A stretch of DNA of 64,000 bases, from assembly GCA_013288945.1 (NCBI GenBank), contig JABDAZ010000001.1:1-64000 (forward strand). The letters run 5' to 3'. Position numbers and translations under genes: made by a program. The number at the start of each line of letters is the position of its first letter. Position 1 is the stretch's first letter. The notes below the pieces were generated by a model. That model saw nothing but the letters and a program-made list of their open reading frames with translations, had not been told where the DNA came from and did not search any database. Positions 27,094 to 57,830 of this stretch are shown here, piece by piece. This DNA is from Bacteroidota bacterium. Its GTDB lineage: Bacteria; Bacteroidota; Bacteroidia; Chitinophagales; Chitinophagaceae.

Positions 27094-27110
27094 TGCTTGA
27101 TTTTTAAAAA

Positions 27111-33554: not shown

Positions 33555-33628
33555 ATGGCAATCATGTTTCTGAAAAGTTACAACAAATTAAAACCAGCAA
33601 AATCACATCCGTTTTGTTATAAAGAATT

Positions 33629-33692
33629 GTTGTGGTAGTGATGTGGTGTTTTGCATAGTTTATTAATGGTGCTGTATTAATGATGTAGTATT
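33629..33692 (+). promoter_or_regulatory. Degenerate copy of the GATGTAGT tandem-repeat element
   Basis: GTTGTGGTAGT|GATGTGGTGTT at 33629 and GCTGTATTAAT|GATGTAGTATT at 33671; 42-bp spacing between pairs. Confidence 0.5.
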
Positions 33693-36908: not shown

Positions 36909-37018
36909 GATGTAGTAGTGATGTAGTAGCAAAAGCCTGATTTTGCCGGATTTTGTTAATGGATGTAGTGCAGATGTGGCAAAAAAAACGATTAATGAGT
37001 AATTGAAATTTACATTTG
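36909..37018 (+). promoter_or_regulatory. Tandem-repeat activator site plus -7 element for the 37066 operon
   Basis: GATGTAGTAGT|GATGTAGTAGC (36909), GATGTAGTGCA|GATGTGGCAAA (36962), TACATTTG (37011). Confidence 0.75.
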
Positions 37019-37065
37019 GTTTCCAAAGTATTTCAATTTCGATTTAAAAATTTTAACCAGACTAA

Positions 37066-38577
37066 ATGAAAAAATCTAACGCATTGCTTCTTGTCATTTG
37101 CCTTATTGCTTTTAATTCTTTCTCGCAAAACAAAGTAGGAATTTTTGATGGTTCCGGCGATATTGGCACAAACGTAAAACCCGGTTCAAGCACTTTTATT
37201 CCACAAACCGGTCAGTATGTAATTTCCGGCGCAGGTTATAATGTGTGGCTCGACCACGATGAATTTCAGTTTTGCTGGAAAAAAATGAAAGGCGATTTTA
37301 TAGTAACTGCCCGCGCAGAATTTTTAGGAACATGGGTTAACTACCACCGCAAAGTTGGATGGATGGTGCGCAAAACGCTCGACGGAAATTCTGCACATGT
37401 TAATGCCGTAGAGCATGGTGATGGACTTACTTCATTACAATTTCGCCGCACTGCTGGCGCTCAAACGGAAGAACACAAATTGAAAATGACACATGCCAAC
37501 ATTCTTCAATTGGAGCGAAAAGGAAATCAATATATTATGCGCGCTGCGATTTATGGCGAGCCGTTTCAAACAGATACTATTGCAGCAATTGATCTTGGCG
37601 ATGATGTGTTCGTTGGGCTTTTTGTAGGCTCGCATAATTCAGACATTGTGGAAACTGGTGTTTTCAGTAACGTATCAATCACTGTTCCTTTTAAAGGAGA
37701 ATCAGATCAAAAAACACAAATGACTTTGGGCAGCAATCTGGAATTGCTTGAAGTTGCTTCCGGTAAAAGAGAAACTATTTATACCGTTCCATATTCTATA
37801 CAAGCGCCCAACTGGACACCCGATGGTAAAAGCCTTGTGTTTAATAATGCAAAGGGTTTGCTTTTTAATTTCGACTTAACTTCTAAAACGCCCACACAGA
37901 TTAATACGGGAACTGTTATTAATAATAATAATGATCATGTACTTTCTTTCAATGGAAAAATGCTTGGCCTTAGCAATTATGTAAAAGACCTTGGCGGATC
38001 AATAATATACACCGTTCCTTTTGAAGGCGGCACGCCAAAACAAGTTACGCCAAAAGGCCCGTCGTACTTGCATGGATGGTCGCCTGATGGAAAGGATCTT
38101 GTTTTTTGTGGTGAAAGAAATGGCGAGTTTGATGTTTATAAAGTTCCTGCTGGCGGCGGAAAAGAAATTCGTTTAACAGATGCAAAAGGCCTGGATGATG
38201 GCCCGGAATATACACCAGACGGAAAATATATTTATTTCAATTCAGTTCGTTCGGGCCTGATGCAGATTTGGAGAATGAATCCTGATGGAACTAACCAGGA
38301 ACAAGTAACCAACGATGATTATAACAATTGGTTTGCACATATTTCTCCCGATGGAAAATGGTTTGTTTACCTTACTTTTTTAAAAGAAGAAACACCTGCC
38401 GGAATTCATCCGCCATACAAACATGTTTACATAAGATTATTGCCAATCGATGGAAAAGGAACGCCAAAAGTGTTGGCATATGTTTACGGCGGACAAGGTT
38501 CAATGAACACACCATCATGGTCGCCAGATAGTAAAAAAATTGCCTTTGTAAGTAATTCAGATATGGGAAGTAATTAA
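37066..38577 (+). CDS. TolB-like/PD40 beta-propeller protein with N-terminal DUF1349-like region
   Basis: Signal peptide; repeated SPDGKxxxF/Y propeller motifs; paralog of 41365-42963. Confidence 0.85.
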   Translation: MKKSNALLLVICLIAFNSFSQNKVGIFDGSGDIGTNVKPGSSTFIPQTGQYVISGAGYNVWLDHDEFQFCWKKMKGDFIVTARAEFLGTWVNYHRKVGWMVRKTLDGNSAHVNAVEHGDGLTSLQFRRTAGAQTEEHKLKMTHANILQLERKGNQYIMRAAIYGEPFQTDTIAAIDLGDDVFVGLFVGSHNSDIVETGVFSNVSITVPFKGESDQKTQMTLGSNLELLEVASGKRETIYTVPYSIQAPNWTPDGKSLVFNNAKGLLFNFDLTSKTPTQINTGTVINNNNDHVLSFNGKMLGLSNYVKDLGGSIIYTVPFEGGTPKQVTPKGPSYLHGWSPDGKDLVFCGERNGEFDVYKVPAGGGKEIRLTDAKGLDDGPEYTPDGKYIYFNSVRSGLMQIWRMNPDGTNQEQVTNDDYNNWFAHISPDGKWFVYLTFLKEETPAGIHPPYKHVYIRLLPIDGKGTPKVLAYVYGGQGSMNTPSWSPDSKKIAFVSNSDMGSN

Positions 38578-38633
38578 AATTTTCTTCCATTAATATCAAA
38601 GAATTCTTTCTCATTTTTTTAAAACGATTGCAT

Positions 38634-39539
38634 ATGAAAAAGTCAAAAACTGATCTGTTACTTGCGCGTAAGCAACAAAATTTTTCTATTAATGCCCGGC
38701 GGAATTTTCTTAAAACGTCGGGGCTTATTATCGCCGGTTCTTTATTACTTCCAAAATCCGGCCGCTCAAATGTTCAACCAAAAAAATTGAATGATGTTGG
38801 CGTGCAACTTTATACCGTGCGCAAAGAAATGGCTGAAGATCCTATCAATACACTTAAAAGATTAGCGAAGATTGGATTTAAAGAATTGGAATCTGCGCGA
38901 AGCGAAAAAGGGAATTATTACGGCCTCGCTCCAAAAGAAATAAAAAAAATTGCAGGCGATTTAGGAATGAAAATCCGCAGCGGCCATATTCATGTTGATA
39001 ATGATTGGAAAAAATCAATTGAGGAAGCTACTGAAACTGGACAGCAATATATTATCTCCGCAGTGCTTCCCTCACAAGGACAAACTGTTGAACATTACCA
39101 GGCTTCCGCAGATGAGTTTAATAAATTGGGTGAAGAGTGCAAAAAAGCAAACCTGTTATTCGGATATCATAATCATGAAACAGAATTTGAAACCGTTAAT
39201 GGGCAAGTGCTTTATGATATTTTATTAAACCGTTGCGATCCATCATTGGTAACAATGGAAATGGATTTGGGTTGGGTAGTTGCAGCAGGCCACGATCCGT
39301 TTGAATACTTTAATAAATATCCCGGCCGCTTCCCATTGTGGCATTTAAAAGATGTAGATATCTCTACAAAAAAGAGCGTTGAATTTGGCAAAGGAAAAGT
39401 AGATATTCCCGGCCTATTAAAGCAAGCTGATAAAGCAGGAATGAAACATTTTTTTGTTGAGCAGGAAGATTATGCTGTCAATGCTTTTGAAAGTATGGAA
39501 TATGATTTTAATTATTTGAAAACGCATCCTATTATTTAA
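38634..39539 (+). CDS. Sugar phosphate isomerase/epimerase (TIM barrel), Tat-type leader
   Basis: RRNFLKTSGLIIAGSLLLP; GVQLYTVRKEM, YHNHETEFE, MEMDLGWVVAAG, WHLKDVD. Confidence 0.9.
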   Translation: MKKSKTDLLLARKQQNFSINARRNFLKTSGLIIAGSLLLPKSGRSNVQPKKLNDVGVQLYTVRKEMAEDPINTLKRLAKIGFKELESARSEKGNYYGLAPKEIKKIAGDLGMKIRSGHIHVDNDWKKSIEEATETGQQYIISAVLPSQGQTVEHYQASADEFNKLGEECKKANLLFGYHNHETEFETVNGQVLYDILLNRCDPSLVTMEMDLGWVVAAGHDPFEYFNKYPGRFPLWHLKDVDISTKKSVEFGKGKVDIPGLLKQADKAGMKHFFVEQEDYAVNAFESMEYDFNYLKTHPII

Positions 39540-39552
39540 AGCGTTTTTTAAA

Positions 39553-40620
39553 ATGAAAAAAAAAATAAACGTTGGGCTTATTGGTTACGGAATTGGGGGG
39601 CAGGTTTTTCATGCCCCCTTATTAACGTGTGTTGATGGATTAATGCTGAAAAAAATCCGCGTTAATAATCCTAGTGACGCCGCGCTTGCAAATAAAAGAT
39701 ATCCGCAGGTTGAATTGGTAAAAGACAGCAAAGACATTATTAATGATCCAACTATAGATTTGGTTATTATCACTTCGCCAAACACATTGCATTTTGCGTT
39801 GGCAACAGAAGCATTGAATGCAGGCAAACATGTTGTGGTTGATAAGCCATTTACAATTTCTTCTAAAGAAGCGGATGAGGTTATTAATCTCGCAAATGAA
39901 AAACAAAAAGTATTATCGGTTTATCACAGCAGGAGATTTGACAGCGATTTCAAAACAGTTCAAAAGATAATCGATAGTGGTTTGCTTGGAAATATTGTTG
40001 AGTTGGAAAGCCGTTATGATCGTTTCAGAAATTTTTTAAAACCAAATGCATGGCGCGAAGATGATGCGCCAGGTTCTGGCCTGTTATATGATTTGGGATC
40101 GCATCTTATTGATCAGGCAGTTACTTTATTTGGTTTGCCAGATGCATTAACAGCTTTTATTAACAGGCAAAGATCCGGTTCAAAAACAGACGACAATTTT
40201 GAATTGATTTTTTATTATAAAAAAATAAAAGTCACGCTAAAATCGGGCATGCTTATCCGCGAACCAGTATTCCGTTTTTTATTATTGGGCAATGAAGGAA
40301 CTTTTATAAAAAAAGGAATGGACGTTCAGGAAGAAGCGCTTAAAGCTGGCTTAACGCCAAACGATATTAATAACTGGGGAGTGGAACCTGCAGCCATTGC
40401 CGGCATTATTAATACCACTGCAAACGGTATACATTTTACCGGAAATGTAGAAAGTGAAAAAGGCGATTATAAAAGTTATTATGAAAATATTTATGCAGCA
40501 ATAACAAACAATGTTCCGCTGCTGGTAACTGCGCAGCAAGCCCGCAATGTGATACGTATTATTGAATTGGCTTTTATAAGTGAAAGAGAAAAAAAGACGA
40601 TTGAGTTTACACAAAACTAA
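39553..40620 (+). CDS. Gfo/Idh/MocA family oxidoreductase
   Basis: NVGLIGYGIGGQVFHAP Rossmann motif; AGKHVVVDKPFTISSKEADEVI; DLGSHLIDQAVTLFG. Confidence 0.93.
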   Translation: MKKKINVGLIGYGIGGQVFHAPLLTCVDGLMLKKIRVNNPSDAALANKRYPQVELVKDSKDIINDPTIDLVIITSPNTLHFALATEALNAGKHVVVDKPFTISSKEADEVINLANEKQKVLSVYHSRRFDSDFKTVQKIIDSGLLGNIVELESRYDRFRNFLKPNAWREDDAPGSGLLYDLGSHLIDQAVTLFGLPDALTAFINRQRSGSKTDDNFELIFYYKKIKVTLKSGMLIREPVFRFLLLGNEGTFIKKGMDVQEEALKAGLTPNDINNWGVEPAAIAGIINTTANGIHFTGNVESEKGDYKSYYENIYAAITNNVPLLVTAQQARNVIRIIELAFISEREKKTIEFTQN

Positions 40621-40647
40621 CCTGCAATAAAACATAATGTAATTAAG

Positions 40648-41352
40648 ATGGATCTTAAAAAAGAAGCTGCAAGAGCTGCTTCGTTACTTGTAAAAAATAA
40701 TACTTCCATCGGTTTGGGCGATGGTTCTACTATTAAATATTTAGCAGAATTTATTATTAATGATTTAAAAAATCCTGGTAAAAAAATTTATACTTCATCA
40801 GCATCAACAAAAATTTTTTTGCAGGATGCAGGGATAATTGTTAATGATATTTCAACAACAGATAACCTTGATATTTATTTTGATGGCTGCGACCAGGTTG
40901 ATTATAATCTTAATGCAATAAAAAGTGGATCAGGAATTCATACGCAGGAAAAATTATTTGCAACAATGGCAAACAGGTTTGTTATCCTCGCAGATACTTC
41001 CAAGTTTGTTGCAGTGCCCGATAAAAAATTTCCATTGGTTATTGAAGTACTTCCGCAAGCAACAATATTTGTTCAAAAAGAAATTAAAAATATAATTCCT
41101 GAAACAATTTTTAATGTAAGAATGCAGGCAGGCGAAAACATTTTTGTAAAAACGCAAAACGGAAATTTATTAATCGATTGTTTTTTTAATGAATGGCCCG
41201 ATTTAGAATTTATTAATAATGAATGTAAAAAAATTACAGGGCTGGTAGAAATTTCCCTCTTCTATAAAATAGCAACGGATGCAATTATTGCAGGCATTAA
41301 TGGTACACAATTTTACGAAAGAAAAAATGACAAAGTTTCACTTATCAATTAA
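40648..41352 (+). CDS. rpiA: Ribose-5-phosphate isomerase A-like protein
   Basis: IGLGDGSTIKYLAEFI, IYFDGCDQVDYNLNAIK, LADTSKFVAVPDKKFPLVIEVLP; divergent at the KGGGG-type motif (KSGSGIHTQEK). Confidence 0.85.
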   Translation: MDLKKEAARAASLLVKNNTSIGLGDGSTIKYLAEFIINDLKNPGKKIYTSSASTKIFLQDAGIIVNDISTTDNLDIYFDGCDQVDYNLNAIKSGSGIHTQEKLFATMANRFVILADTSKFVAVPDKKFPLVIEVLPQATIFVQKEIKNIIPETIFNVRMQAGENIFVKTQNGNLLIDCFFNEWPDLEFINNECKKITGLVEISLFYKIATDAIIAGINGTQFYERKNDKVSLIN

Positions 41353-41364
41353 AACGATTAGCAT

Positions 41365-42963
41365 ATGAATAATGTAACGACATCGCTCTTTAAAAAAAAT
41401 CTTACAAAAATTATCGGATGCACGCTGTTGCTTTTTTGCCTGCAAAACAATTATGTTTTTGCGCAACACGCAGTTGGAATTTTTGAAAACAGTATTGATA
41501 TCGGCAATCCAAAAAAAGCAGGCTCGGCAAGTTATGATGAAGCAAACCAGGTGTATAATATTTCCGGTGGCGGATCAAACATTTGGTTCAACCGGGATGA
41601 ATTTCATTTTGTATATAAAAAACTAAAAGGCGATTTTACATTAACAGCAGATTTTGCTTTTACCGGAGATACCGTTGGCGCAGTTGGCCATCGCAAAATC
41701 GGTTGGATGATTCGCGAATCAACAGATGAAGGTGCTGCAAGTGCAAATGCATGCAAGCATATCGATGGATTGGTTGTGCTTCAGTGGCGCACGTACAAAG
41801 GCATGTTTATGCGTGACCCCGAAGAAGAACGTTTCTATTCAAAAAAAGGGGGGCAAACAATTCAACTGGAAAGAATTGGTAAAACAATTACCATGAGAAT
41901 TGCACATCCGGGGGAACCATTACAGTTTGTTGGATCGTATGAAAGCGATGTATTAAACGGCGAAGTGCTTGCAGGAATTTATATATTATCGCACGATTCA
42001 AATGTAGTTGCAAATGCAAAAATCTGGAACGTTCGTATAGACAAACCTGTTTTTCATCCATACACTTCAAACCCGCACGCAGTGCAGGCTCCGGTTACAG
42101 ATGTGTTTGCAAGCAGGTTAGAAATTCTTGATATTGCTGACGGAACAAGAAAAGTAATTCATGAAGCGCAAGGCAAATTTGAAGCGCCAAACTGGATGCC
42201 CGACGGAAAAAAATTATTGTTTAATGAAGGTGGATCACTTTATACAATTCCAATTGAAGGGGGCACGCCGGAAAAATTAAATACAGGTTCGATTAATCAT
42301 AATAATAATGATCATGCAATTTCCTTCGATGGAAAAATGCTTGCAATAAGCAGCCACAGAGAAGGTTTGCCCGGCGGCGGATCAACACTTTATACTTTGC
42401 CATTAACGAGTGGCGAACCAAAATTAATTACTGAAGGCACGCCATCTTATTTGCATGGATGGAACCCGAATGGTAAAGAAGTAGCGATTGTTGCAAAACG
42501 CGGCGACAGTAAAATCTATAATCTCTACAAAGTTTCTCTTGCTGATAAAAAAGAAACGCAACTCACTTTTAATATCAGGGGGCATGTTGATGGCCCGGAA
42601 TATTCTCCCGATGGAAAATATATTTATTACAACGCAAATGTTTCCGGCACGATGCAGATTTGGAGAATGAAAACTGATGGAACCGGCAATGAGCAATTAA
42701 CTTTTGATGAATACAACAATTGGTTTCCGCACATTTCTCCTGATGGAAAAAAGATGGTTTATATTTCTTTTGAAGAAGATATAGATCCAGATTCTCATCC
42801 TTCTTTCAAATATGTAACGCTAAAAATTATGCCTTTAAATACAGCTGGCGCACCAAAAGTGTTGGCGTATTTATTTGGGGGGCAAGGCACTCTTAATGCC
42901 CCCTCATGGTCGCCGGATGGAAAACATATTGCTTTTGTAAGCAACTCTGAACCGGTAAAATAA
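41365..42963 (+). CDS. TolB-like/PD40 beta-propeller protein, paralog of 37066-38577
   Basis: Same architecture; IFENSIDIGNPKKAGSASYDEANQVYNISGGGSNIWFNRDEFHF; C-terminal FGGQGTLNAPSWSPDGKHIAFVSNSE. Confidence 0.85.
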   Translation: MNNVTTSLFKKNLTKIIGCTLLLFCLQNNYVFAQHAVGIFENSIDIGNPKKAGSASYDEANQVYNISGGGSNIWFNRDEFHFVYKKLKGDFTLTADFAFTGDTVGAVGHRKIGWMIRESTDEGAASANACKHIDGLVVLQWRTYKGMFMRDPEEERFYSKKGGQTIQLERIGKTITMRIAHPGEPLQFVGSYESDVLNGEVLAGIYILSHDSNVVANAKIWNVRIDKPVFHPYTSNPHAVQAPVTDVFASRLEILDIADGTRKVIHEAQGKFEAPNWMPDGKKLLFNEGGSLYTIPIEGGTPEKLNTGSINHNNNDHAISFDGKMLAISSHREGLPGGGSTLYTLPLTSGEPKLITEGTPSYLHGWNPNGKEVAIVAKRGDSKIYNLYKVSLADKKETQLTFNIRGHVDGPEYSPDGKYIYYNANVSGTMQIWRMKTDGTGNEQLTFDEYNNWFPHISPDGKKMVYISFEEDIDPDSHPSFKYVTLKIMPLNTAGAPKVLAYLFGGQGTLNAPSWSPDGKHIAFVSNSEPVK

Positions 42964-42986
42964 TATTTCATTTCATTAATAGAATT

Positions 42987-43096
42987 GATGTAGTGAAGAT
43001 GTGCTTAAAGCCAGCAATTCCGCCTAAAAATTTACATATGATGTACTGTTGATGTGGTAGAAAAATAGCTGTTGCTGTGTTAGAAATTTAGATTTG
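42987..43096 (+). promoter_or_regulatory. Tandem-repeat activator site plus -7 element for the 43141 SusC operon
   Basis: GATGTAGTGAA|GATGTGCTTAA (42987), GATGTACTGTT|GATGTGGTAGA (43040), TAGATTTG (43089). Confidence 0.75.
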
Positions 43097-43140
43097 TCTT
43101 GTTTAAATATTATTCATTATACCTAAAACGACGATTGCTT

Positions 43141-46100
43141 ATGCCAAAGAAAAAGAATGGGCTATACAAAATATGTAGCTTGCTTACAGGCTTCCTTCTT
43201 ATTACATCATTATTAGTTGCCCAAAAAACTGTTACGGGAAAAATTATAGGTGCAACAACTAAACAACCTGTTACGGGAGCAACCGTGCAGGTGAAAGGTT
43301 CTACGGTTGCAACGCAAACTGATTCATCGGGGGCATTTAGTATTAAGGTGCCGAAAAATAACAGCCTTCTCGAAGTTTCGTCAATTGGTTTCGAAAATCT
43401 TGAAATACCGACAGCCGGCAAAACGGATATTGGCGAAATAGAATTAGCAATTTCCAACAGCACCTTAAACCAGGTTGTGGTTACAGGTTATTCCACACAA
43501 AGAAAGCGCGACATCACAGGTTCTGTATCTGTAGTAAATGTTGCAGAAATGAAGCAAACCCCATCCGGCAGTACGGAAGCATTATTGCAGGGGCAGGCTT
43601 CGGGCGTTACTGTTTTTACAACGGGGGCACCGGGCGGCGCTGCTGTTGTGCAAATACGCGGTATTACTTCATCAGGTAATTCTTCACCACTTGTAATTGT
43701 TGATGGTGTGCCGGGTAGCATGCATGATATTAATCCCAATGATATTCAATCCATACAGGTTTTGAAAGATGCGGGGGCAGCAGCCATTTATGGTGTGAGG
43801 GGATCGAACGGTGTAATAATAATAACTACAAAAAGGGGGGCAGGAAAAATAAAAGTTTCTTACGATGCTTATTATGGAACACAAAGGCCATTAAGCAAAA
43901 GTTGGAAACTGGCAACGCCAACCCAAACTGGCCAGGTGAAATGGGCACAAGCTTTTAATGATGGATTAACGCCGAGTGACCCCCAATACGGCAGTGGCGC
44001 AACGCCGGTTGTTCCTTATTATATAACGCCAACGGGGGCACCGCAGGGGGCACCAAATACAAGTTTGGCTGATTATAATCTTTATAACAATCACATTACA
44101 GTTGCCGATCAGGCGGGTAACAACTGGTTTAATGATATTTTTAAACCAGCGCCAATAATGAACCATAATATTTCTGTAAGCGGGGGCACTGGAAAGTCTT
44201 CCTACTTTATGGCATTTAATTATATGGATCAGCAGGGGACATTGATTGAAACAAGTTTGAAACGTTATTCAGTAAGGGTCAATTCCACATTTAGTTTTGC
44301 TGATGATCATATACGCGTTGGCGAAAATATTTTTGCTTTTTATAAAACAAACCCGGGTTACTTAAATGCGCCCGGTGTTAATAGCACCAACTCTATTAAT
44401 GCTGCTTACCAGCTTCCAAATATTATTCCTGTGCATGATATTGCAGGCAATTATGCAGGTGGTATTTCATTAGGGCTTGGCAATGCATCAAACCCTGTTG
44501 CTATACAAGAGCGCCAGGCGAATAATGTAAACCAGGATTATCAAGTTAGTGGCAACCTCTTTGCTGATGTAGATTTTCTAAAACATTTTACCATACATAC
44601 AAGCATTGGTGGAACTGCTGATAATAATTATTATAATGGTTTTGTAAGTACGCCTTATGAAAATGCAGAAAATAACCATGCTGCAAATTTGTATTTGGAA
44701 ACTTATGGATGGAACAGCAGCCTTGTTTGGACAAACACGATTAAGTATGCAAACAAAATAGGCAAGCATGATATTAGTGTGGTAGGGGGCAGTGAATATA
44801 TTTATAATACAGGCCGCGCAGTGCAAACAACAAGGGGCAATTATTATATAACCGATTCAAGCAATTTAACGGTTAGCCCGAATTTATATACACTCAATTT
44901 TGGTCAGGCTTCTACGCAAACAAATAACTCAAGTGTGATTGGTGATAACGGAATTCAAACTCCTTATCAATTAGCCATATTTTCTTTGTTTGGAAGATTG
45001 GATTATAACTACGATGGAAAATATCTTTTAAGTGCAACGTTGCGCAGAGATGGTTCATCCGTATTTGTTCCTGCACAGCGCTATGGAAATTTTCCATCTG
45101 TATCTGCAGGATGGAGAATTTCGCAGGAGAATTTTATGAAAGGAATTGATTGGCTTGATGAATTAAAAATCCGTGGAGGCTGGGGCAAATTGGGTTCAAT
45201 CAGTAATATTAATCCAACAAATGCATTCACGCTTTTTGGCCAGCAAATCAACCAATCTTATTATGATATTAATGGAACAAGCACTACACCGGCAGCAGGC
45301 CTTTATGTAAGCCAGTATGGTAACCCAAATACAACTTGGGAAAAAGATATCTTAACTAATATCGGGTTTGATGCAAGTATCTTAAAAAACAAATTGGATT
45401 TTAGTATTGACTGGTATAAAAAATTAATCAGTGGATTGTTATTTGTTCCGCAGGTTCCCGGCATTAATGGGGGCACGCTTGATCCATTTTTAAATTCAGG
45501 TAATGTAAGCAACACAGGTATTGATTTATCACTTACTTATCATGGCCGTGTGCGTAAAGATTTGACATTTGATTTAACAGGAACATTCACTTCTTACAAT
45601 AATAAAGTTGTGAGTTTGCCTTCGGGAACTTTATATATTAATCAGCCTGTTGGCGCGCAAACAGTTACTTCAAGAATTCAACCAGGCCATCCGCTCGGTG
45701 CATTTTTTGGATATAAAGTAATTGGCTTGTTTCAAAGTTGGGATGATGTAAATAAATCACCAAAACAGCAAGACGCTGCCCCCGGACGTTTTAAATATGC
45801 AGATGTAGATCACAGCGGAACGATTGATAATAATGACAGAACATTTTTTGGTAACCCAAATCCGAAATTTAGTGCGGGTTTAAATATTGCTGTCAATTAT
45901 AAAAACTTTGATTTGTATATGTTCTTATACACTTCAATAGGAAATGATATTTTAAATTCTGTAAAAGGATCAACAGATTTTCCACAAGCGTTCGGCAACC
46001 AGGTTAGTGAAAATGTTGCGGTTAATTCTGCAAGGCTTATTAATGCAGCAGGGCAGCCAACAAACATTAATGACCCTTCAGCGCATGTTGCTAATCCCGG

Positions 46101-46422
46101 AACTAATGTTCCATTGCTTGAGCAGGATGCAGTGTTTAGTAATTCAGGTGCGTTCAATTCATACACAATGGAAAGCGGTTCTTTTCTTCGTTGCCGCAAT
46201 CTAACTCTTGGTTACAGCATTGTTTCCAACACCATTAAACGTTTGCATTTTGATAAATTAAGAGTGTATGCGCAAGTGCTGAATTTATTTACCATAACAA
46301 ATTATTCAGGATTGGATCCTGAACTTAACCCGGGCAGCAATACTGTATTTGGTATTGATGGTGGTGTGTATCCGAATAACCAAAAGACATTTAATGTTGG
46401 TGTCAATGTAACAATACATTAA
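43141..46422 (+). CDS. SusC/RagA family TonB-linked outer membrane protein
   Basis: ATG 43141 (MPKKKNGLYKICSLLTGFLLITSLLVAQ) preferred over TTG 43099; VVVTGYSTQRKRDITGSVSVV, VLKDAGAAAIYGVRGSNGVIIITTKRG. Confidence 0.95.
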   Translation: MPKKKNGLYKICSLLTGFLLITSLLVAQKTVTGKIIGATTKQPVTGATVQVKGSTVATQTDSSGAFSIKVPKNNSLLEVSSIGFENLEIPTAGKTDIGEIELAISNSTLNQVVVTGYSTQRKRDITGSVSVVNVAEMKQTPSGSTEALLQGQASGVTVFTTGAPGGAAVVQIRGITSSGNSSPLVIVDGVPGSMHDINPNDIQSIQVLKDAGAAAIYGVRGSNGVIIITTKRGAGKIKVSYDAYYGTQRPLSKSWKLATPTQTGQVKWAQAFNDGLTPSDPQYGSGATPVVPYYITPTGAPQGAPNTSLADYNLYNNHITVADQAGNNWFNDIFKPAPIMNHNISVSGGTGKSSYFMAFNYMDQQGTLIETSLKRYSVRVNSTFSFADDHIRVGENIFAFYKTNPGYLNAPGVNSTNSINAAYQLPNIIPVHDIAGNYAGGISLGLGNASNPVAIQERQANNVNQDYQVSGNLFADVDFLKHFTIHTSIGGTADNNYYNGFVSTPYENAENNHAANLYLETYGWNSSLVWTNTIKYANKIGKHDISVVGGSEYIYNTGRAVQTTRGNYYITDSSNLTVSPNLYTLNFGQASTQTNNSSVIGDNGIQTPYQLAIFSLFGRLDYNYDGKYLLSATLRRDGSSVFVPAQRYGNFPSVSAGWRISQENFMKGIDWLDELKIRGGWGKLGSISNINPTNAFTLFGQQINQSYYDINGTSTTPAAGLYVSQYGNPNTTWEKDILTNIGFDASILKNKLDFSIDWYKKLISGLLFVPQVPGINGGTLDPFLNSGNVSNTGIDLSLTYHGRVRKDLTFDLTGTFTSYNNKVVSLPSGTLYINQPVGAQTVTSRIQPGHPLGAFFGYKVIGLFQSWDDVNKSPKQQDAAPGRFKYADVDHSGTIDNNDRTFFGNPNPKFSAGLNIAVNYKNFDLYMFLYTSIGNDILNSVKGSTDFPQAFGNQVSENVAVNSARLINAAGQPTNINDPSAHVANPGTNVPLLEQDAVFSNSGAFNSYTMESGSFLRCRNLTLGYSIVSNTIKRLHFDKLRVYAQVLNLFTITNYSGLDPELNPGSNTVFGIDGGVYPNNQKTFNVGVNVTIH

Positions 46423-46447
46423 TTATATTTTATAAAAATAAAACGAT

Positions 46448-48280
46448 ATGAAAAAAATATTTCAGTGGGTGTTACCGGGCGTAATAATTCTTTCAACAAT
46501 TTTAATTTATGCCTGCAGCAAGAAATTAAATTTACAACCACAAGGTTCTTTGCTTGCTTCCAACGTTAATAATAATTCTGGTGTGCAGGGTTTATTAATC
46601 GGTGCCTATGTATTATTATCTGGTGAAAATGTTCCCGGACAAAATCTTGGAAACGGAAGCGCTGCATCAAATTATGTTTATGGAAGTGAAGCGGCAGATG
46701 ATTCTTACAAAGGTTCTACTCCATCTGATCAACCCGATGCAATTCCTATAGAAACATGGTCGCTCGCGCAAGCGGGCACAAGTGCTTATTTAGATGAAAA
46801 ATGGGTGGTGCTATATACAGGAATACAAAGGGCAAATGATGTAATACGTACCGTGCGTTTGTCTCCTTCAATTTCTTCGGCGGATACAACAGAGTATGTT
46901 GCTGAAGCGCGTTTTTTGCGTGGCTTTTATCACTTCGAAGGAAAGAAAATTTGGAACAATTTTCCTTATGTTGATGAAAGTATTTCATATGCAAACAACA
47001 ACTTGAATGTTGCCAATTATTCTGGTACAGGTTATATAAATATCTGGCCGCAGATAGAAGCAGATTTTATGTATGCTGTAAATAATTTGCCAACAACACA
47101 ACCAAATATTGGTCGCGTTAATAAATGGGCTGCAATGGCTTTTCTTGCAAAAACTTATATGTACGAACATAATTATGCAAGTGCAAAAACATTGCTTGAT
47201 CAAATAATTAGCAGTGGTACCACATCAAACGGTACCCCCTATGCACTTGAACCTCTTTATGAAAGTAATTTTAACCCTGCACAAAAAAATGGATCCGAAA
47301 GTGTATTTGCATGCCAGGCTTCTGTAAATGATGGTTCATCCACTTCAGGAAACGGGGGCAATGGCGATACAGGGGATGAACTTAATTTTCCTTACAATCA
47401 TGGCCCGGGTTGTTGCGGTTTTAATAACCCTTCATGGAGCCTGGTACAAGCTTTCAAAACTGATGCAAACGGTTTGCCTTTGTTAGATGGAAGTTATATT
47501 AATGCACCTTTGGTAAGTGATAATACAAACCCATGGCATGGTACTGTAGATCCTCGCCTGGACTGGGTTGCAGGCCGCCCGGGAGAACCTTATCTTGATT
47601 GGGGCATTATTGATACCACATGGATTCGCGATCAAAGTAATGACGGATATTTTGTTGCTAAAAAAACATCTTATGCAAAAAGCCAACAAGGAACTTTTTC
47701 ATCAACAGAAACAGTTTTTTGGGGGGCAGCAGAAGTTGATGCAGATAACGTAAACCTTTGCCGTTTTGCTGATGTACTATTATGGGATGCAGAATGTGAA
47801 GCACAAATTGGTAGCCTTGATAAAGCAGAAACTTATGTAAATATGGTTCGCCAACGTGCAGCAAACCCGAATGGTTTTGTGTATTTGGGGGCAACATACA
47901 ATGCAGCTACAAGCACTTATTCACCGCAAACAACGCCGGGGGACAAATATGCTGTTAGTCCTTACCCCCTCGGAGCATTTAGTGCAGGGGGGCAGACGTA
48001 TGCTATTAATGCAATTGAAATGGAAAGAAGGCTTGAACTCGCAATGGAAGGCCAGCGCTTTTTTGATCTTTCAAGATGGGACAATGGCACAGGCTCTATG
48101 GCAGCAACGCTTAATGCATATGTAAGTTTTGAAAAAACAAGAAACGGATTTTACCGCGTTAATAACAATGCAATGTTTACAAAAGGGGTCAACGAATATT
48201 TTGCTATCCCCCAAAATGAAATAGATGCCGAAAATGCATCCGGTAAAAAAGTATTGTATCAAAACCCAGGATACCAGTAG
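46448..48280 (+). CDS. SusD/RagB family lipoprotein
   Basis: Lipobox ILIYACSKK; AEARFLRGFYHFEGKKIW; ERRLELAMEGQRFFDLSRWD. Confidence 0.95.
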   Translation: MKKIFQWVLPGVIILSTILIYACSKKLNLQPQGSLLASNVNNNSGVQGLLIGAYVLLSGENVPGQNLGNGSAASNYVYGSEAADDSYKGSTPSDQPDAIPIETWSLAQAGTSAYLDEKWVVLYTGIQRANDVIRTVRLSPSISSADTTEYVAEARFLRGFYHFEGKKIWNNFPYVDESISYANNNLNVANYSGTGYINIWPQIEADFMYAVNNLPTTQPNIGRVNKWAAMAFLAKTYMYEHNYASAKTLLDQIISSGTTSNGTPYALEPLYESNFNPAQKNGSESVFACQASVNDGSSTSGNGGNGDTGDELNFPYNHGPGCCGFNNPSWSLVQAFKTDANGLPLLDGSYINAPLVSDNTNPWHGTVDPRLDWVAGRPGEPYLDWGIIDTTWIRDQSNDGYFVAKKTSYAKSQQGTFSSTETVFWGAAEVDADNVNLCRFADVLLWDAECEAQIGSLDKAETYVNMVRQRAANPNGFVYLGATYNAATSTYSPQTTPGDKYAVSPYPLGAFSAGGQTYAINAIEMERRLELAMEGQRFFDLSRWDNGTGSMAATLNAYVSFEKTRNGFYRVNNNAMFTKGVNEYFAIPQNEIDAENASGKKVLYQNPGYQ

Positions 48281-48304
48281 TAGAAATTGTTGAATGCAGA
48301 AATA

Positions 48305-48331
48305 AAAGGAAGGGCATTTCGCCCTTCCTTT
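48305..48331 (+). terminator. Hairpin terminator after SusD
   Basis: AAAGGAAGGGC-atttc-GCCCTTCCTTT. Confidence 0.7.
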
Positions 48332-48403
48332 CCTGTTAATAAACGTTTGCATTTTATATATAATAGAATGTATCTTTTATAAGATTTCCCTGAAAATCTG
48401 TCT

Positions 48404-51400
48404 ATGATTTTTGATAAATACTTGACAAACGCATTCTTGTTTTTTATTACCATTTTATTAATTGATGCTTGTAAAAGCAAAGCCACTTTATTTGAGCTCG
48501 TGCCCCCCGCACAATCAGGAATTTATTTTAATAACCAGATTATAGAAAACGACTCTGTTAATCCGTTGGATATGACGAATATTTATAACGGCGGCGGAGT
48601 TGGTATTGGTGATTTTAATAATGATGGCTTGCAAGATATTTATTTTACAGGCAACACCGTTTCAAACAAACTTTATCTTAATAAAAGCAATTTTAAATTT
48701 GATGATATTACAGATGCAGCCGGCGTTTCAGGCAATGGAAAATGGTCGCGGGGGGTATCAGTTGTTGATATCAATAATGATGGCTGGATGGATATTTATG
48801 TTTGCGTAACCATCAAATCAAACCCTGAGCAAAGAAGAAATTTATTATACATCAACCAGGGGGCAGACGCGAAGGGGATCCCCCATTTTAAAGAAATGGC
48901 AAAAGAATATGGATTGGATGATACACTGTATTCAACCATGGCCGCTTTTTTTGATTATGATAACGATGGTGATTTGGATATGTATCTTGTCGTTAATCAA
49001 ATTCCTAAAAATTATAACACCAATATATTCCGTCCAAAAATAAATGATGGCTCTTTCCCAAGTACAGGCAGGTTGTATAGAAATGATTGGAATGCTAAAT
49101 TAAACCATCCTGTTTTTACAAACGTATCAAAAGAAGCAGGAATAACTTTAGAAGGTTTCGGCCACGATGCAACCATCGCGGATATTAATCACGATGGCTG
49201 GAAAGATATTTATGTTAGCGACGATTTTATTGGCGATGATATTCTTTACATTAATAACCACGACGGAACTTTTACAAATAAAATCAAAACTTATTTTAAA
49301 CATACATCCGCTAATGGAATGGGGCAGGATATTGAAGACATTAATAACGATGGCCTTGCAGATGTAGTTGAACTGGATATGGATCCCCCGGATAATTTTA
49401 GAAAAAAAATGATGTTGGGGGGCAACAATTATCGTATATATCAAAACGCTGATTATTTCGGGTATCAGTATCAGTACATAAGAAACAGTTTACAATTAAA
49501 CCAGGGGGCAAGAGTTAATGGAAATGATTCTGTGGGGGATCCGATATTTAGCGAGATCGGTTTTTATAGCGGCATTGCAGAAACGGATTGGAGCTGGGCA
49601 CCAATGGTTGCAGATTTTGATAATGATGGTTTCCGGGACATTATCATTACCAACGGATATCCCAAAGATGTAAGCGATCATGATTTTATGGCGTTCCGTC
49701 AAATGGCCACCAGGCTTGCTTCTAAGAAGATGGTCCTTGATCAGATTCCGCAGGTAAAAATTCATAATTATGCATTGAAAAATAACCAGGATCTTACATT
49801 TTCTGATGTTACAGATAATTGGGGAATGATGACTCCTGGCTTTTCAAACGGCGCTGCTTATGCAGACCTTGACAACGATGGAGATTTGGATATAATTATT
49901 AATAACATTAATGATGGCGCCCACATTTATAAAAATTTATCGCGCGAAAAAGAATCGCTTAATAATAATTATCTAAACATAAATTTTGCAGGGGGCAACT
50001 TTAATAAAAATGGTTTAGGCGCTTTTGCAGAACTGCATTATAATAATGGCAAACAACAGGTTTATGAAAACACGCCATACAGGGGATATCTTTCTTCCAT
50101 TCAGAATATGGCGCATTTTGGTTTGGGTGAAATTAAAATTATTGATACTGTATTAATAAAATGGCCCGATGGAAAAATGCAGTTATTAAAAAATGTAAAA
50201 GCAAATCAATTGGTTAATGCTGATATAAAAAACGCCAATCTTACTTATTCTTCATCGCAGCAAACTTTTGCGCCAAATACAATTTTTAAAGATTTTACCA
50301 GCGATGTAGATATTCATTTTACACACAAGCAAAAAGATTTTATTGATTTTGATATACAACGTTTGCTGCCGCATAAGTTCTCAGAATATGGGCCTGCGCT
50401 GACTGTTGGCGATATCGATGGAAATGGGTTTGATGATTTTATTGTAGGGGGCAGCGCATTTAATAGCGCAACAATTTTTTTACAACAGGCGAACGGAAAG
50501 TTTATTCAAAAATCATTAATGCCTGATTCTGTAATCAAAAATAAGCCAGGTAATGATCTTGGCATTTTATTATTTGATGCAGATAATGATGGCGATTTGG
50601 ATCTTTATATTACAAGTGGGGGATATGAAAATGCACACAACAGCGCAACATATCAGGACATGTTATTTATAAATGATGGCAAGGGACATTTTACAAGAGA
50701 CACGACAGCATTGCCACAAAATTTTACAAGTAAATTTTGCGTTCGCGCAGCAGATTATGATCATGATGGCGATCTTGATTTGTTTGTTTCAGGCCGTGTT
50801 GATCCCGGAAATTATCCGAAGCCTGTATCAAGTTTTATCTTTAGAAATGATTCAAAGAATGGCAAAATAAAATTTACCGATGTTACCCCCTTCATTGCAA
50901 AAGATTTAATAAATGCAGGAATGATTTGCGACGCCATCTGGACAGATTTTGATAATGACGGCTGGCCAGATTTAATATTTGCAGGCGAGTGGATGCCCGT
51001 TACTTTTTTAAAAAATGAAAAGGGAATTTTTAAAAACGTCACTGAAAAATCGGGGGTCATCAATCAAACCGGATGGTGGAACAGTATTGCTGCGGGCGAT
51101 TTTAATAACGATGGAAATATTGATTATATCGTTAGCAATCTCGGGCAAAATTCGTTTTATAAAGCAAGTGCTGAATATCCTGTAAACGTGTATGGCAAAG
51201 ACTTTGACCACAATGGCATTTATGATATGGTCCCATCTTTATACCTGCCGGATACGGATGGAATAAAAGAAGAATTTCCTGCGCAGGGTTGGGAAGATTT
51301 AATTGGGCAGTTAAATCAGAAACGCAGAAAATTTCCTACATACAGATCTTACGCTACGGCAAATATGAGTAAAATTCTTACAGAAGAAGATCGCAAGGGG

Positions 51401-52009
51401 GCATTAATCCTTCATGCAAATAATCTTAAAACGAGCATGCTTAAAAATAATGGCAATGGAAATTTTACAATGAATTCATTACCGGCGCAAGCGCAATTTT
51501 CAGCTATTAATGGAATGGTGGTAGATGATTTCGATGGTGATGGAAACCTTGATGTATTAATGAATGGCAATGATTACGGCACTGAAGTTTCAGTTGGCCG
51601 TTATGATGCATTGAATGGTTTATTAATGAAGGGCGATGGAAAAAATAATTTTTCGCCACAATCTATTTTGCAAAGTGGAATTTTTATACCGGGCAATGGA
51701 AAATCTTTGGTAAAGCTTAAAAGCGCTTCTGGAAAATGCCTCATTATTGCAGCGCAAAACAGGGGGCAACTTAAAGTTTTTGAATTGAAAAAAAATATGA
51801 ATTGTATTTCTCTTAAAGCTGATGATATAAGTGCATTAATAACTTATAAAAATGGATTATCAAGAAAAGAAGAATTTTATTATGGCTCATCTTTCTTATC
51901 TCAGTCTGGCAGGTTTATTACTGTTGATACCAATATTTCAAAAATAAAAATTACAAACAGCAAAGGTGAAATGCGTGATGTTTCGCCTGTTGTAAATGGA
52001 ATTCATTAA
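48404..52009 (+). CDS. FG-GAP/VCBS repeat protein with ASPIC/UnbV-like segment (CRTAC type)
   Basis: Repeated DFNNDGxxDIY/F Ca-binding repeats; GLGEIKIIDTVLIKWPDGKMQLL. Confidence 0.9.
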   Translation: MIFDKYLTNAFLFFITILLIDACKSKATLFELVPPAQSGIYFNNQIIENDSVNPLDMTNIYNGGGVGIGDFNNDGLQDIYFTGNTVSNKLYLNKSNFKFDDITDAAGVSGNGKWSRGVSVVDINNDGWMDIYVCVTIKSNPEQRRNLLYINQGADAKGIPHFKEMAKEYGLDDTLYSTMAAFFDYDNDGDLDMYLVVNQIPKNYNTNIFRPKINDGSFPSTGRLYRNDWNAKLNHPVFTNVSKEAGITLEGFGHDATIADINHDGWKDIYVSDDFIGDDILYINNHDGTFTNKIKTYFKHTSANGMGQDIEDINNDGLADVVELDMDPPDNFRKKMMLGGNNYRIYQNADYFGYQYQYIRNSLQLNQGARVNGNDSVGDPIFSEIGFYSGIAETDWSWAPMVADFDNDGFRDIIITNGYPKDVSDHDFMAFRQMATRLASKKMVLDQIPQVKIHNYALKNNQDLTFSDVTDNWGMMTPGFSNGAAYADLDNDGDLDIIINNINDGAHIYKNLSREKESLNNNYLNINFAGGNFNKNGLGAFAELHYNNGKQQVYENTPYRGYLSSIQNMAHFGLGEIKIIDTVLIKWPDGKMQLLKNVKANQLVNADIKNANLTYSSSQQTFAPNTIFKDFTSDVDIHFTHKQKDFIDFDIQRLLPHKFSEYGPALTVGDIDGNGFDDFIVGGSAFNSATIFLQQANGKFIQKSLMPDSVIKNKPGNDLGILLFDADNDGDLDLYITSGGYENAHNSATYQDMLFINDGKGHFTRDTTALPQNFTSKFCVRAADYDHDGDLDLFVSGRVDPGNYPKPVSSFIFRNDSKNGKIKFTDVTPFIAKDLINAGMICDAIWTDFDNDGWPDLIFAGEWMPVTFLKNEKGIFKNVTEKSGVINQTGWWNSIAAGDFNNDGNIDYIVSNLGQNSFYKASAEYPVNVYGKDFDHNGIYDMVPSLYLPDTDGIKEEFPAQGWEDLIGQLNQKRRKFPTYRSYATANMSKILTEEDRKGALILHANNLKTSMLKNNGNGNFTMNSLPAQAQFSAINGMVVDDFDGDGNLDVLMNGNDYGTEVSVGRYDALNGLLMKGDGKNNFSPQSILQSGIFIPGNGKSLVKLKSASGKCLIIAAQNRGQLKVFELKKNMNCISLKADDISALITYKNGLSRKEEFYYGSSFLSQSGRFITVDTNISKIKITNSKGEMRDVSPVVNGIH

Positions 52010-52050
52010 TAAAACGAAGATTCTTTTTAGTGTTTAATAATTTATAAGCT

Positions 52051-53622
52051 ATGCAGGTTTCAGCAAAAAAAAATGTTGTTGTTTTTATTTTATTAATGTT
52101 CGTTTTATTTTATTCCTGTTCTGATTATAATAAAAAACCGCACAAAGATATTTCTGAAGCCAGCATTAATGCAGGTGAGTTATTGGCAAAAAAATATTGC
52201 CAGTCATGCCATTTACTTCCTGCCCCCTCACTTTTAAATACCGAATCTTGGGTTAAGGGGGTACTTCCGAATATGGGGCCGCGGCTTGGCATATTCAATT
52301 TTAAATGGGAAAGTTATCCGTCATTGCGATATGATAAAAATGTACCAAGAAATTTTTATCCTTCTCAACCACTTTTAACTGATAATGAATGGCAGGATAT
52401 TATTAATTACTACACGGCAAGTTCCCCTGATACTTTGCCCCCTCAGCACAGAACGATGCCCATTGAAATCAGGAAAGATTTGTTTGCAGTTTCCATGCCC
52501 CCCTTTTTCAAACCAGCGCCGAATACATGTTATATAAAAGTTGACACAACAACAATTCCTCATACAATTTTGCAAAGCGATGTTTTTACAAAAGAAATAA
52601 TTAGGTATGATACAGGTTTAAAAATCATTGATTCCATTAAAGCCGCAAGTGCAATGGTTGATATTGATTTTAAAAATAAAACAATGGTTACCTGCAACAT
52701 TGGTGTGCTGAATCCCAATAATGGCAGCTTCGGAAAATTGCAATATGTAATAAAAGATGCTGCAGGAAAAATGCATATCGATACAACTTTTCATATTAAT
52801 AATTTACAAAGGCCGGTGCAGTTGATTAAAACAGATTTAAATAAAGACGGGCTTGATGATTACCTCGTTTGCGAATTTGGTTATGTAACAGGCTCATTAA
52901 ACTGGTATGAAAATAAAGGAAAAAATATTTTCACGAAACACGTACTGCGCGCGGTTCCTGGCGCTATTAAGGCTTATGTGAAAGATTACAACAATGATGG
53001 CTTGCCGGATATTTTTGTATTATTTGCGCAAGGCGATGAAGGGATTTTTTTATTTACCAACAAAGGCAACGGCCAGTTCGATCAAAAAACATTGCTTCGT
53101 TTTCCGCCTTCTTATGGTTCATCTTATTTTGAATTAGATGATTTTAATAAAGATGGTTTACCTGATATTTTATATACCTGCGGCGACAATGCAGATTTTT
53201 CTCCGGTGTTTAAACCTTATCATGGTGTATATATTTTTATGAATGATGGCAAATACAATTTCACACAAATATATTTTTTTCCTATTAATGGTTGTTATAA
53301 AGCAATGGCTGCAGATTTTAATAATGATGGCAATCTCGATATCGCTGCGATATCATTTTTTGCAGATTATACAAAGCAACCTGAAGAAGGATTTGTGTAT
53401 TTGAAAAATATCGGCGGGTTAAATTTTAAACCATACAGTGTGCCTGAAGCAATGAACGGGCATTGGCTCACGATGGATGTTGGTGATATTTATGGCAATG
53501 GAAAGAAAAGCATTTTACTCGGAAATTTTTCACGCGCACCTTCAAATTTGAAACGAAAGGTTGACTGGAAAGATGGCCCGCCATTTCTTATTTTAAATAA
53601 AACAAGCTCATTAATAAAATAA
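52051..53622 (+). CDS. FG-GAP/VCBS repeat lipoprotein with N-terminal c-type heme motif
   Basis: LFYSCSDYN lipobox; AKKYCQSCHLLPAPSLL (CxxCH); DFNNDGNLDIAAISFF repeats. Confidence 0.88.
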   Translation: MQVSAKKNVVVFILLMFVLFYSCSDYNKKPHKDISEASINAGELLAKKYCQSCHLLPAPSLLNTESWVKGVLPNMGPRLGIFNFKWESYPSLRYDKNVPRNFYPSQPLLTDNEWQDIINYYTASSPDTLPPQHRTMPIEIRKDLFAVSMPPFFKPAPNTCYIKVDTTTIPHTILQSDVFTKEIIRYDTGLKIIDSIKAASAMVDIDFKNKTMVTCNIGVLNPNNGSFGKLQYVIKDAAGKMHIDTTFHINNLQRPVQLIKTDLNKDGLDDYLVCEFGYVTGSLNWYENKGKNIFTKHVLRAVPGAIKAYVKDYNNDGLPDIFVLFAQGDEGIFLFTNKGNGQFDQKTLLRFPPSYGSSYFELDDFNKDGLPDILYTCGDNADFSPVFKPYHGVYIFMNDGKYNFTQIYFFPINGCYKAMAADFNNDGNLDIAAISFFADYTKQPEEGFVYLKNIGGLNFKPYSVPEAMNGHWLTMDVGDIYGNGKKSILLGNFSRAPSNLKRKVDWKDGPPFLILNKTSSLIK

Positions 53623-53648
53623 TCCTGATAATAAATTTATAGCATGAT

Positions 53649-53758
53649 GATGTAGAGTTGATGTAGTATTTAAAAGAATTTTCCCTTGTAATATTTTATT
53701 TGACGTAGTTGAGATGTGTGTTGAAAAGAGGATGGTAAGTGTATAGAATTTATTTTTA
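53649..53758 (+). promoter_or_regulatory. Tandem-repeat activator site plus -7-like element for the 53879 operon
   Basis: GATGTAGAGTT|GATGTAGTATT (53649), GACGTAGTTGA|GATGTGTGTTG (53702), TATTTTTA (53751). Confidence 0.7.
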
Positions 53759-53878: not shown

Positions 53879-54406
53879 ATGAACAGACGATTAGCCATTA
53901 ATATAGCACTTGCTACTGCTGCCGGAATTTTTTTGATTCCATCCTGCATGCAAGAAAAAAGTAAACCGGACATTGTTTTAAAAAACATTAATGTTTCCGG
54001 CGACCAGCAAAAAATGCTTGCAGATCTTGCAGAAATAATTATCCCAAAAACTTCTTCGCCGGGCGCGGCTGATCTTTCTACTCATCAATTTGCGTTAATG
54101 ATGGTTGATGATTGTTATGATCCGGAGCTTCGATCAAAATTTGAAAAAGGCATTGCTGAATTTGAGTCTTTATCAAAAAATAACTTTGGAAATTCTTTTA
54201 TAAAATGCAGCGGTGAACAAAAAGAAAAATTGATTAATACAATGGAAAACCAAAAAGATGCGGTCGAGGGGGCAGCATTTTTTTATAATAATTTTAAAAA
54301 ATTAGCGATACAAAGTTTTACAAGCTCGCAATACTATCTTACAAAAATTCATGTTTACGAACTGGTGCCGGGAAGGTTTCATGGATGTGTGCCATTAATA
54401 AAATAA
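53879..54406 (+). CDS. Gluconate 2-dehydrogenase subunit 3 family protein
   Basis: NRRLAINIALATAAGIFLIPSCMQ; MLADLAEIIIPKTSSPGAADLSTHQFALMMVDDCYD; directly upstream of a GMC oxidoreductase. Confidence 0.88.
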   Translation: MNRRLAINIALATAAGIFLIPSCMQEKSKPDIVLKNINVSGDQQKMLADLAEIIIPKTSSPGAADLSTHQFALMMVDDCYDPELRSKFEKGIAEFESLSKNNFGNSFIKCSGEQKEKLINTMENQKDAVEGAAFFYNNFKKLAIQSFTSSQYYLTKIHVYELVPGRFHGCVPLIK

Positions 54407-54425
54407 TCAAGCATTAAAATTTTTA

Positions 54426-56138
54426 TTGAATATGGGTGATACAATAAACAGCCGGACTTTTGACGCCATAGTAATTGGCTCAGGAATGAGCGGGGGATGG
54501 GCTGCAAAAGAATTGTGCGAAAAAGGTTTAAAGACATTGGTGTTGGAAAGAGGAAGAGATGTGAAACATTTAAAAGACTACCCCACAACAAATATGAATC
54601 CATGGGAATTTAAGCACAGGGGGCAAGTTCCATATGAAATTGTAAAAGCAAATCCTGTAATAAGTAAGTGCTATGCTTTTAAAGAAGATGCCATGCATTT
54701 TTTTGTAAAAGATAATGAACACCCTTACGTGCAGGGAAAACCATTTGATTGGATCAGGGGGTACCAGGTAGGGGGCAAGTCTATTATGTGGGCACGCCAA
54801 ACGCAGCGCTGGAGCGACTTTGATTTCGAAGGCCCGCAGCGTGATGGCTTTGCTGTTGACTGGCCAATCCGTTACAAAGATGTTGAACCATGGTATAGTT
54901 ATGTAGAAAAATTTGCGGGGATATCAGGTAATAAAGATGGCATACCTAATCTTCCCGATGGTGAATTTTTGCCCCCTATGGATTTAACTTGCGTTGAACA
55001 TTATTTTAAAGATTTAATTGGAAAAAAGTATAAAGATCGTCATGTTATTTATGCACGTTGCGCCCATCTCACAGAACCCCAGCCGATACATTTAGCGCAA
55101 GGCAGGGGGCAATGCCAAAAGCGGGATCTTTGTCAGCGCGGTTGCCCCTTTGGTGGTTATTATAATACAAATTCAACAACAATTCCCTACGCTGCAAAAA
55201 CGGGCAATATGACGCTGCGGCCTTTTTCCGTAGCGCATTCTATTATTTATGATGATAAAAAAGGCAAGGCAACTGGGGTACGCGTTATTGATACCAATAC
55301 AAAAGAGACGATTGATTTTTTTGCAAAAATTATTTTTGTAAATGCAGCGGCTTTTAATACCAATCTTTTATTGCTTCATTCCACGTCAAGCCATTTTCCC
55401 AATGGGTTGGGCAATGATAATGGGCTGATGGGAAAGTTTGCTGCGTTTCATAATTACCGCGCGCGGATGTCGGCAAGCTATGATGGTTTTAAAGATTCAA
55501 CAACGGACGGACGCAGGCCAACATCTGCATACATACCGCGTTTCAGAAATGTATATAAACAGGAAATGGATTTTTTAAGAGGCTATGCTGCCACATTTTC
55601 TACAGGCAGAAGTGTTGTGCCCCCCGATACAAATGGATTTGGTGAAACTTTAAAAAATAAACTTTCTGCCCCCCTTCAAGCTGGCCCGTGGCATATAAGT
55701 TCTCAAATGATGGGGGAAACAATTCCTAAAGAAACCAATACGCTTTCTCTTGATAAAGAAAAGAAAGATGCATGGGGCATGCCGCTATTAAAAATATCGA
55801 TTGACTATGATGACAATGAAGATAAAATGATTAAAGATTTTTTTGAGCAAATGACTGAAATGTATACTGTCGCCGGTTTTCAGGAGATTAAAACTTCTGA
55901 TTCCAAACAAGCGCCGGGGCTTGATATACATGAAATGGGGGGCATAAGAATGGGGCATGATCCAAAAACATCTTTGCTTAATAAATGGAACCAGCTTCAT
56001 GCTTGTCAAAATGTGTTTGTTACCGATGGTTCTTGCATGACGTCCACATCAACACAAAATCCTTCACTAACTTATATGGCATTAACAGCAAGAGCGGTTG
56101 ATTATGCAGTATCAAAAATGAAAAGAAATGAGTTGTAA
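54426..56138 (+). CDS. GMC family oxidoreductase
   Basis: DAIVIGSGMSGGWAAKELCEKGLKTLVLERG FAD motif; GYQVGGKSIMWARQTQRWSDFDFE; C-terminal FVTDGSCMTSTSTQNPSLTYMALTARAVDYA. Confidence 0.95.
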   Translation: MNMGDTINSRTFDAIVIGSGMSGGWAAKELCEKGLKTLVLERGRDVKHLKDYPTTNMNPWEFKHRGQVPYEIVKANPVISKCYAFKEDAMHFFVKDNEHPYVQGKPFDWIRGYQVGGKSIMWARQTQRWSDFDFEGPQRDGFAVDWPIRYKDVEPWYSYVEKFAGISGNKDGIPNLPDGEFLPPMDLTCVEHYFKDLIGKKYKDRHVIYARCAHLTEPQPIHLAQGRGQCQKRDLCQRGCPFGGYYNTNSTTIPYAAKTGNMTLRPFSVAHSIIYDDKKGKATGVRVIDTNTKETIDFFAKIIFVNAAAFNTNLLLLHSTSSHFPNGLGNDNGLMGKFAAFHNYRARMSASYDGFKDSTTDGRRPTSAYIPRFRNVYKQEMDFLRGYAATFSTGRSVVPPDTNGFGETLKNKLSAPLQAGPWHISSQMMGETIPKETNTLSLDKEKKDAWGMPLLKISIDYDDNEDKMIKDFFEQMTEMYTVAGFQEIKTSDSKQAPGLDIHEMGGIRMGHDPKTSLLNKWNQLHACQNVFVTDGSCMTSTSTQNPSLTYMALTARAVDYAVSKMKRNEL

Positions 56139-56182
56139 TAATCTTTGTTTATAAAGCGCCGGTTTTTGTATTTTTAAAAAAG

Positions 56183-57301: not shown

Positions 57302-57340
57302 ATAAAAAACAACAATTTATTATTCATTAAAATTTCATGT

Positions 57341-57802: not shown

Positions 57803-57830
57803 CATTAATGTTTTATAAAATCTTGTATAA

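Follow-up and report, generated by a model that had tools for sequence, protein, structure and literature searches.

Conserved four-half-site arrays with promoter-locked geometry in Chitinophagaceae are probable operators of an adjacent transmembrane one-component regulator

Results

The 64,000-nucleotide window analyzed here (positions 1 to 64,000 of contig JABDAZ010000001.1, assembly GCA_013288945.1, a Bacteroidota bacterium of the Chitinophagaceae) contains three plus-strand gene sets, each preceded by a regularly spaced array of short repeats, and a minus-strand gene for a 981-residue candidate regulator (33740..36685). The first unit (37066..42963) encodes a PD40 propeller, an AP_endonuc_2 protein resembling sugar isomerases/epimerases, a GFO/IDH/MocA protein, a Rib_5-P_isom_A-like protein and another PD40 propeller. 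The second (43142..53622) encodes SusC, SusD and two FG-GAP proteins, one with an ASPIC/UnbV domain, and the third (53879..58529) a Gluconate_2-dh3 protein, a GMC oxidoreductase, an acyltransferase, a glyoxalase and a 3-keto-disaccharide hydrolase. The listed SusC open reading frame (ORF) begins at TTG 43099, ahead of the predicted transcript start; ATG 43142 fits that start better and is the likelier initiation codon.

The three arrays share one design, namely four GATGTAGT-like half-sites forming two 11-bp direct-repeat pairs 53 bp apart, with the last half-site 38 bp ahead of a TAnnTTTG (-7) box. Array 1 (36909..36983, plus strand; half-sites at 36909, 36920, 36962 and 36973; pair spacing 53), which has orthologous arrays before the PD40 gene in relatives, is followed by the -7 box TACATTTG (37011..37018, plus strand) 38 bp from the start of half-site 4, the predicted promoter of the PD40 gene operon. 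Array 2 (42987..43061, plus strand; half-sites at 42987, 42998, 43040 and 43051), kept between PD40b and SusC in locus L027 and others, precedes TAGATTTG (43089..43096, plus strand) at the predicted susC/susD promoter. Array 3 (53649..53723, plus strand; half-sites at 53649, 53660, 53702, here GACGT, and 53713) precedes a weak -7 box, TATTTTTA (53751..53758, plus strand), assigned to the operon of Gluconate_2-dh3, GMC oxidoreductase and 3-keto-disaccharide hydrolase; in L027 an array near 16953 also precedes the GMC3/GMC pair. All twelve half-sites and all three -7 boxes lie where the original prediction, made from the letters of the window, had placed them.

The genome-wide search proposed with that prediction finds the spaced pattern at these three sites only. 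In the organism's own assembly (3.03 Mb, 72.9% complete, 35% G+C), GATGT-N6-GATGT-N37-GATGT-N6-GATGT (offsets 0/11/53/64; at most three mismatches) matches arrays 1-3 and nothing else, all on the plus strand of this contig. Calculated from 35% G+C, chance alone would give about 1e-5 exact matches to the 20 specified bases in this genome. A control with the reversed pattern was dropped because GATGTAG contains TGTAG and the two are therefore not independent; shuffled sequences and the opposite strand were used in its place. No array was detected at the second SusD/TonB-dependent receptor pair of the window (25678-30290, minus strand).

The arrays recur with the regulator in related genomes. Metagenome bins of Chitinophagaceae, two of which are labelled Puia, contain orthologs of the regulator; an array stands before the PD40 gene in nearly all of these loci and also before the PD40b/SusC genes in most of those with enough flanking sequence. 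Within the genus an exact 19-bp pair is present in 22 of the 24 genomes that encode a regulator homolog, as against none (0) of the 9 that lack one. Homologs at E <= 1e-100 are present in 98 of 247 Chitinophagaceae genomes. When 90 regions before homologous regulators were scanned for any pair spacing from 30 to 99 bp and hits counted at a score of at least 19, 58 contained an array on the divergent strand at a spacing of 51-56 or 43; shuffled sequences gave a 95th percentile of 18.0 and a maximum of 20. At a stricter threshold an array was present in 59/89 upstream regions and in 1/89 on the opposite strand. Arrays were also found in two further families (L302, L303), and SusC accounts for 16 of the roughly 22 genes that follow arrays in other genera.

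We pooled 103 distinct arrays from Chitinophagaceae relatives, a set that includes orthologs and is hence not independent, using a scan restricted to spacings of 40-45 and 50-57. Pair spacing is 51-56 in 94 arrays (mode 53) and 41-43 in the remaining 9, two classes that differ by one helical turn. The 53-bp spacing, originally described as invariant, is therefore typical and no more than that. The 11-bp period together with the one-turn difference between classes supports the proposed binding on one DNA face. The 38-bp distance to the -7 box held up better and is nearly fixed: among the 77 arrays with a clear box, it begins exactly 38 bp from the start of half-site 4 in 60 and at 37-39 bp in 72. 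At +38 the box reads TA..TTT with a final base that is mostly G or A. The half-site consensus is GATGTAGT at all four positions, and the first half-site of each pair is better conserved at its 3' end.

Random scatter of the motif with respect to genes is contradicted by where the arrays lie. Only 1/103 falls inside an ORF of at least 150 aa, compared with 345/415 random positions, and 96/103 lie upstream of a same-strand ORF (243/415 random positions), usually with a gap of less than 100 nt. Taken together, these comparisons support the arrays as real, conserved regulatory elements with promoter-locked geometry. The array promoters show no clear -33 TTTG box, as originally stated, and an A-rich run follows half-site 4 instead. 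The accompanying idea that a bound activator replaces the -33 contact is weak: a -33 box was likewise not found in Flavobacterium (F. johnsoniae; PMC7366714), and its absence here accordingly carries little weight.

In family f59, several loci seem to keep only the proximal pair and the -7 box, an observation made without a statistical test. Arrays on contigs other than that of the regulator (L283, at G006:C33, L022 and L290) stand before PD40b-SusC-SusD, an RpiA-like gene and a PD40 gene; the regulon may extend to places remote from the regulator, or a single locus may have been split over several contigs.

The window also contains a fourth, weaker array (33629..33692, plus strand; half-sites at 33629, 33640, 33671 and 33682), which has a 42-bp pair spacing and faces the 3' end of the regulator gene. 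On its other side lies a redoxin/thioredoxin-like gene (32406..33554, minus strand), a probable fourth target reached in reverse orientation, with a proposed -7 box, TAACTTTT (33573..33580, minus strand), 48 bp from the array. Most relatives carry a second AP_endonuc_2 gene here, and array 4 is then flanked by that gene and the redoxin gene, which both diverge from it. That AP_endonuc_2 gene is absent at this place in the window and in L027, L029 and L041, and its -7 box has been lost in the five species without it. This distribution is what would be expected if array 4 were a mere relic of the promoter of a gene lost from this genome, a reading that we regard as a serious, though the less probable, possibility. 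Set against it is the redoxin side: in 14/16 loci the distance between the closest half-site and a TAACTTT[TC] or TACCTTTT box is 47-49 bp (13 taken directly from the table, L031 recounted from its positions), and all five gene-less species, including one of another genus (L079), retain an array or pair at that distance. Because array and distance are kept where the AP_endonuc_2 gene is gone, array 4 probably serves the redoxin gene in reverse orientation.

The candidate regulator combines a signal peptide (judged by eye), a Reg_prop propeller and a Y_Y_Y domain (Pfam) on the periplasmic side, one transmembrane stretch (hydropathy peak at about 758-776), a long coiled-coil helix of roughly 90 residues, and a C-terminal LuxR/GerE-type helix-turn-helix (HTH) domain. 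Pfam, hydropathy and the HTH matches thus indicate a single polypeptide with a periplasmic sensor, a membrane helix and a cytoplasmic HTH. The match to Pfam GerE (E=1.4e-4) scores slightly below the Pfam cut-off; the AlphaFold model of this part can be superposed on LuxR-type domains to about 2 A, with weak Foldseek E-values, and its fold matches the DNA-binding domains of DosR, VraR, LiaR and NarL (TM-score on the target 0.74-0.82). GerE match and model agree on the four-helix DNA-binding domain of the LuxR/GerE superfamily. The C-terminus also matches, weakly, the NCBIfam BT3442 family. Among solved structures, the closest to the sensor are the hybrid-system sensor domains 4a2l, 3v9f and 3ott. 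Domain searches of the 981-aa protein found no histidine kinase, receiver or AraC-type domain.

In a tree of the C-terminal domain calculated with the recognition helix removed, one clade (SH-aLRT 98) contains an array in 59/65 members and the regulators outside it in 0/24. The regulator of the window belongs to the array-bearing clade, and the earlier nomination of this divergent Reg_prop/Y_Y_Y/HTH protein is well supported by that mapping. A single recognition-helix residue (Ile versus Thr after GVE) correlates with the array (51/59 versus 2/15), yet an independent-pairs test on the tree showed that the association is not independent of descent; we therefore claim a link at the level of the clade only. 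A de novo search for an alternative operator in the array-less clades found nothing above shuffles except weak AT-rich signals in L209 and L210. The regulators of these two loci carry Thr at the recognition-helix position, and the upstream AT-rich signal is periodic with a spacing of 52; it is possibly an altered operator.

In up to 18/59 loci, a -7 consensus match on the regulator's own strand is separated from the array by 11-15 bp. Autoactivation at the redoxin-like distance was rejected, as there is no peak at 47-49 bp and the peak lies at 11-15 bp instead. The observed distance is compatible with autorepression, whereby bound regulator may limit its own expression.

Discussion

On present evidence we consider it highly probable that the adjacent transmembrane one-component regulator uses the arrays as its operators, and we propose the following mode of action. 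The Reg_prop/Y_Y_Y domain would sense a sugar-derived periplasmic ligand, and the signal would travel through the membrane helix and coiled coil to the LuxR-type HTH domains, which may bind head-to-tail on each 11-bp direct repeat. The two pairs are separated by four or five helical turns and so share a DNA face, which would let a tetramer, or a couple of dimers, occupy both, with the intervening DNA looped or wrapped. The promoter-proximal pair, ending about 30 bp upstream of the -7 box, would then recruit or position RNA polymerase and thereby turn on transcription of the three operons and, probably, of the redoxin gene. Binding, stoichiometry, activation over repression and the identity of the ligand are all inferred here from sequence.

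Some observations weigh against this assignment. Apart from the shared ancestry within the pooled set, the assemblies of the relatives are mostly fragmented metagenome bins, six members of the array-bearing clade have no detected array, and one good array (L282, G028:C22:6314-6383, minus strand) has no obvious same-strand gene downstream. Co-inheritance of another factor could also explain both proximity and clade association.

Repression in place of activation, with the bound regulator blocking the promoter until ligand frees it, appears unlikely. The proximal pair is near the promoter and geometry alone gives no sign, yet half-site 4 stops some 30 bp short of the -7 box without overlapping it, a usual position for an activator, and the analogous membrane regulator SusR is an activator (PMC3878776). 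We give slightly less credence still to the arrays being bound by a different, unlinked transcription factor of which the Reg_prop/Y_Y_Y protein is merely a target. It is true that in most loci no more than about 40-104 bp separate the array from the regulator start, and the -7 matches at 11-15 bp make its control from the same DNA plausible. What speaks for the adjacent regulator itself is that the array tracks one clade of its DNA-binding domain and its presence in the genome. Short AT-rich words recur at 35% G+C, but a compositional accident, or the repeats of a mobile or structural element, can be dismissed for arrays that have so small an expected count and are intergenic, promoter-locked and conserved across genera.

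With the adjacent protein as the preferred regulator, the system may be compared with known ones. It resembles the SusR-like regulators of Bacteroides in having a membrane protein with periplasmic sensor and cytoplasmic HTH, and in a predicted operator that is a distant direct repeat on one DNA face before SusC/SusD operons. In the predicted SusR-like repeats, however, two boxes on one DNA face are spaced by 67 or 77 bp (Ravcheev et al. 2013, PMC3878776), a distance the arrays do not show; here four half-sites form pairs 51-56 or 41-43 bp apart at a fixed 38 bp from the -7 box, in different genera. On this comparison, which covered domain layout and operator geometry, the system is not filed as SusR-like. 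The hybrid two-component systems of Bacteroides share the Reg_prop/Y_Y_Y sensor and direct-repeat operators, the latter with short spacers (for example 5, 6 and 9 bp; PMC3878776). The regulator of the window, with its LuxR-type HTH and without histidine kinase, receiver or AraC domain, is not one of them. LuxR/NarL-type response regulators share its C-terminal fold, but here the HTH sits on a membrane coiled coil, a receiver domain is absent, and a doubled direct repeat forms the putative operator. Transmembrane one-component regulators such as ToxR, CadC and TcpP (PMC10269533) likewise join an outside sensor to an inside DNA-binding domain in one polypeptide. Unlike in the present protein, their domain order is reversed and their domains are unrelated. 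To our knowledge, no paired 53-bp architecture is associated with regulators of that type. A literature search, which did not cover most subscription journals, found no description of this motif, and a text search for GATGTAGT returned only unrelated sequences among the matches listed.

The gene content also suggests a function for the locus. The 3-keto-disaccharide hydrolase carries the PF06439 domain of the 3-ketotrehalose hydrolase BT2157 (PMC9007349), and from this content we infer that the locus serves 3-keto-glycoside catabolism. The Bacteroides regulator SusR4 is BT2160 (PMC3878776), close to BT2157 by locus number, which we note as a lead only.

The three-site regulon originally proposed stands as a real, conserved, promoter-locked array system, but its scope was drawn too narrowly: the window holds a fourth array and appears to be one instance of a family-wide system. 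We lean towards the broader view that one clade of transmembrane regulators in Chitinophagaceae and neighbouring families controls SusC/polysaccharide utilization locus promoters through a shared, nearly invariant four-half-site operator. If so, paralogs in one cell would carry near-identical operators, their specificity coming partly from fine sequence differences or membrane coupling, and the four-half-site operator could drive promoters in both directions. For a large class of glycan-sensing regulators, most of them uncharacterised, the targets would become readable from environmental Bacteroidota genome sequence, including sites distant from the regulator and the wiring of many nutrient-uptake gene sets. 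The fixed 38 bp and whole-turn pair spacing would also make this a compact system in which to study how promoter DNA is engaged by a membrane-anchored factor.

Paralogous regulators with arrays of their own were seen in several loci. In L006, L018, L019 and L024 the paralog, about 50% identical, is accompanied by an array whose third half-site is a variant, GGTAGTAGTAGGGATGTAGT, and in L288/L289 a SusC-like gene follows the array of the paralogous regulator.

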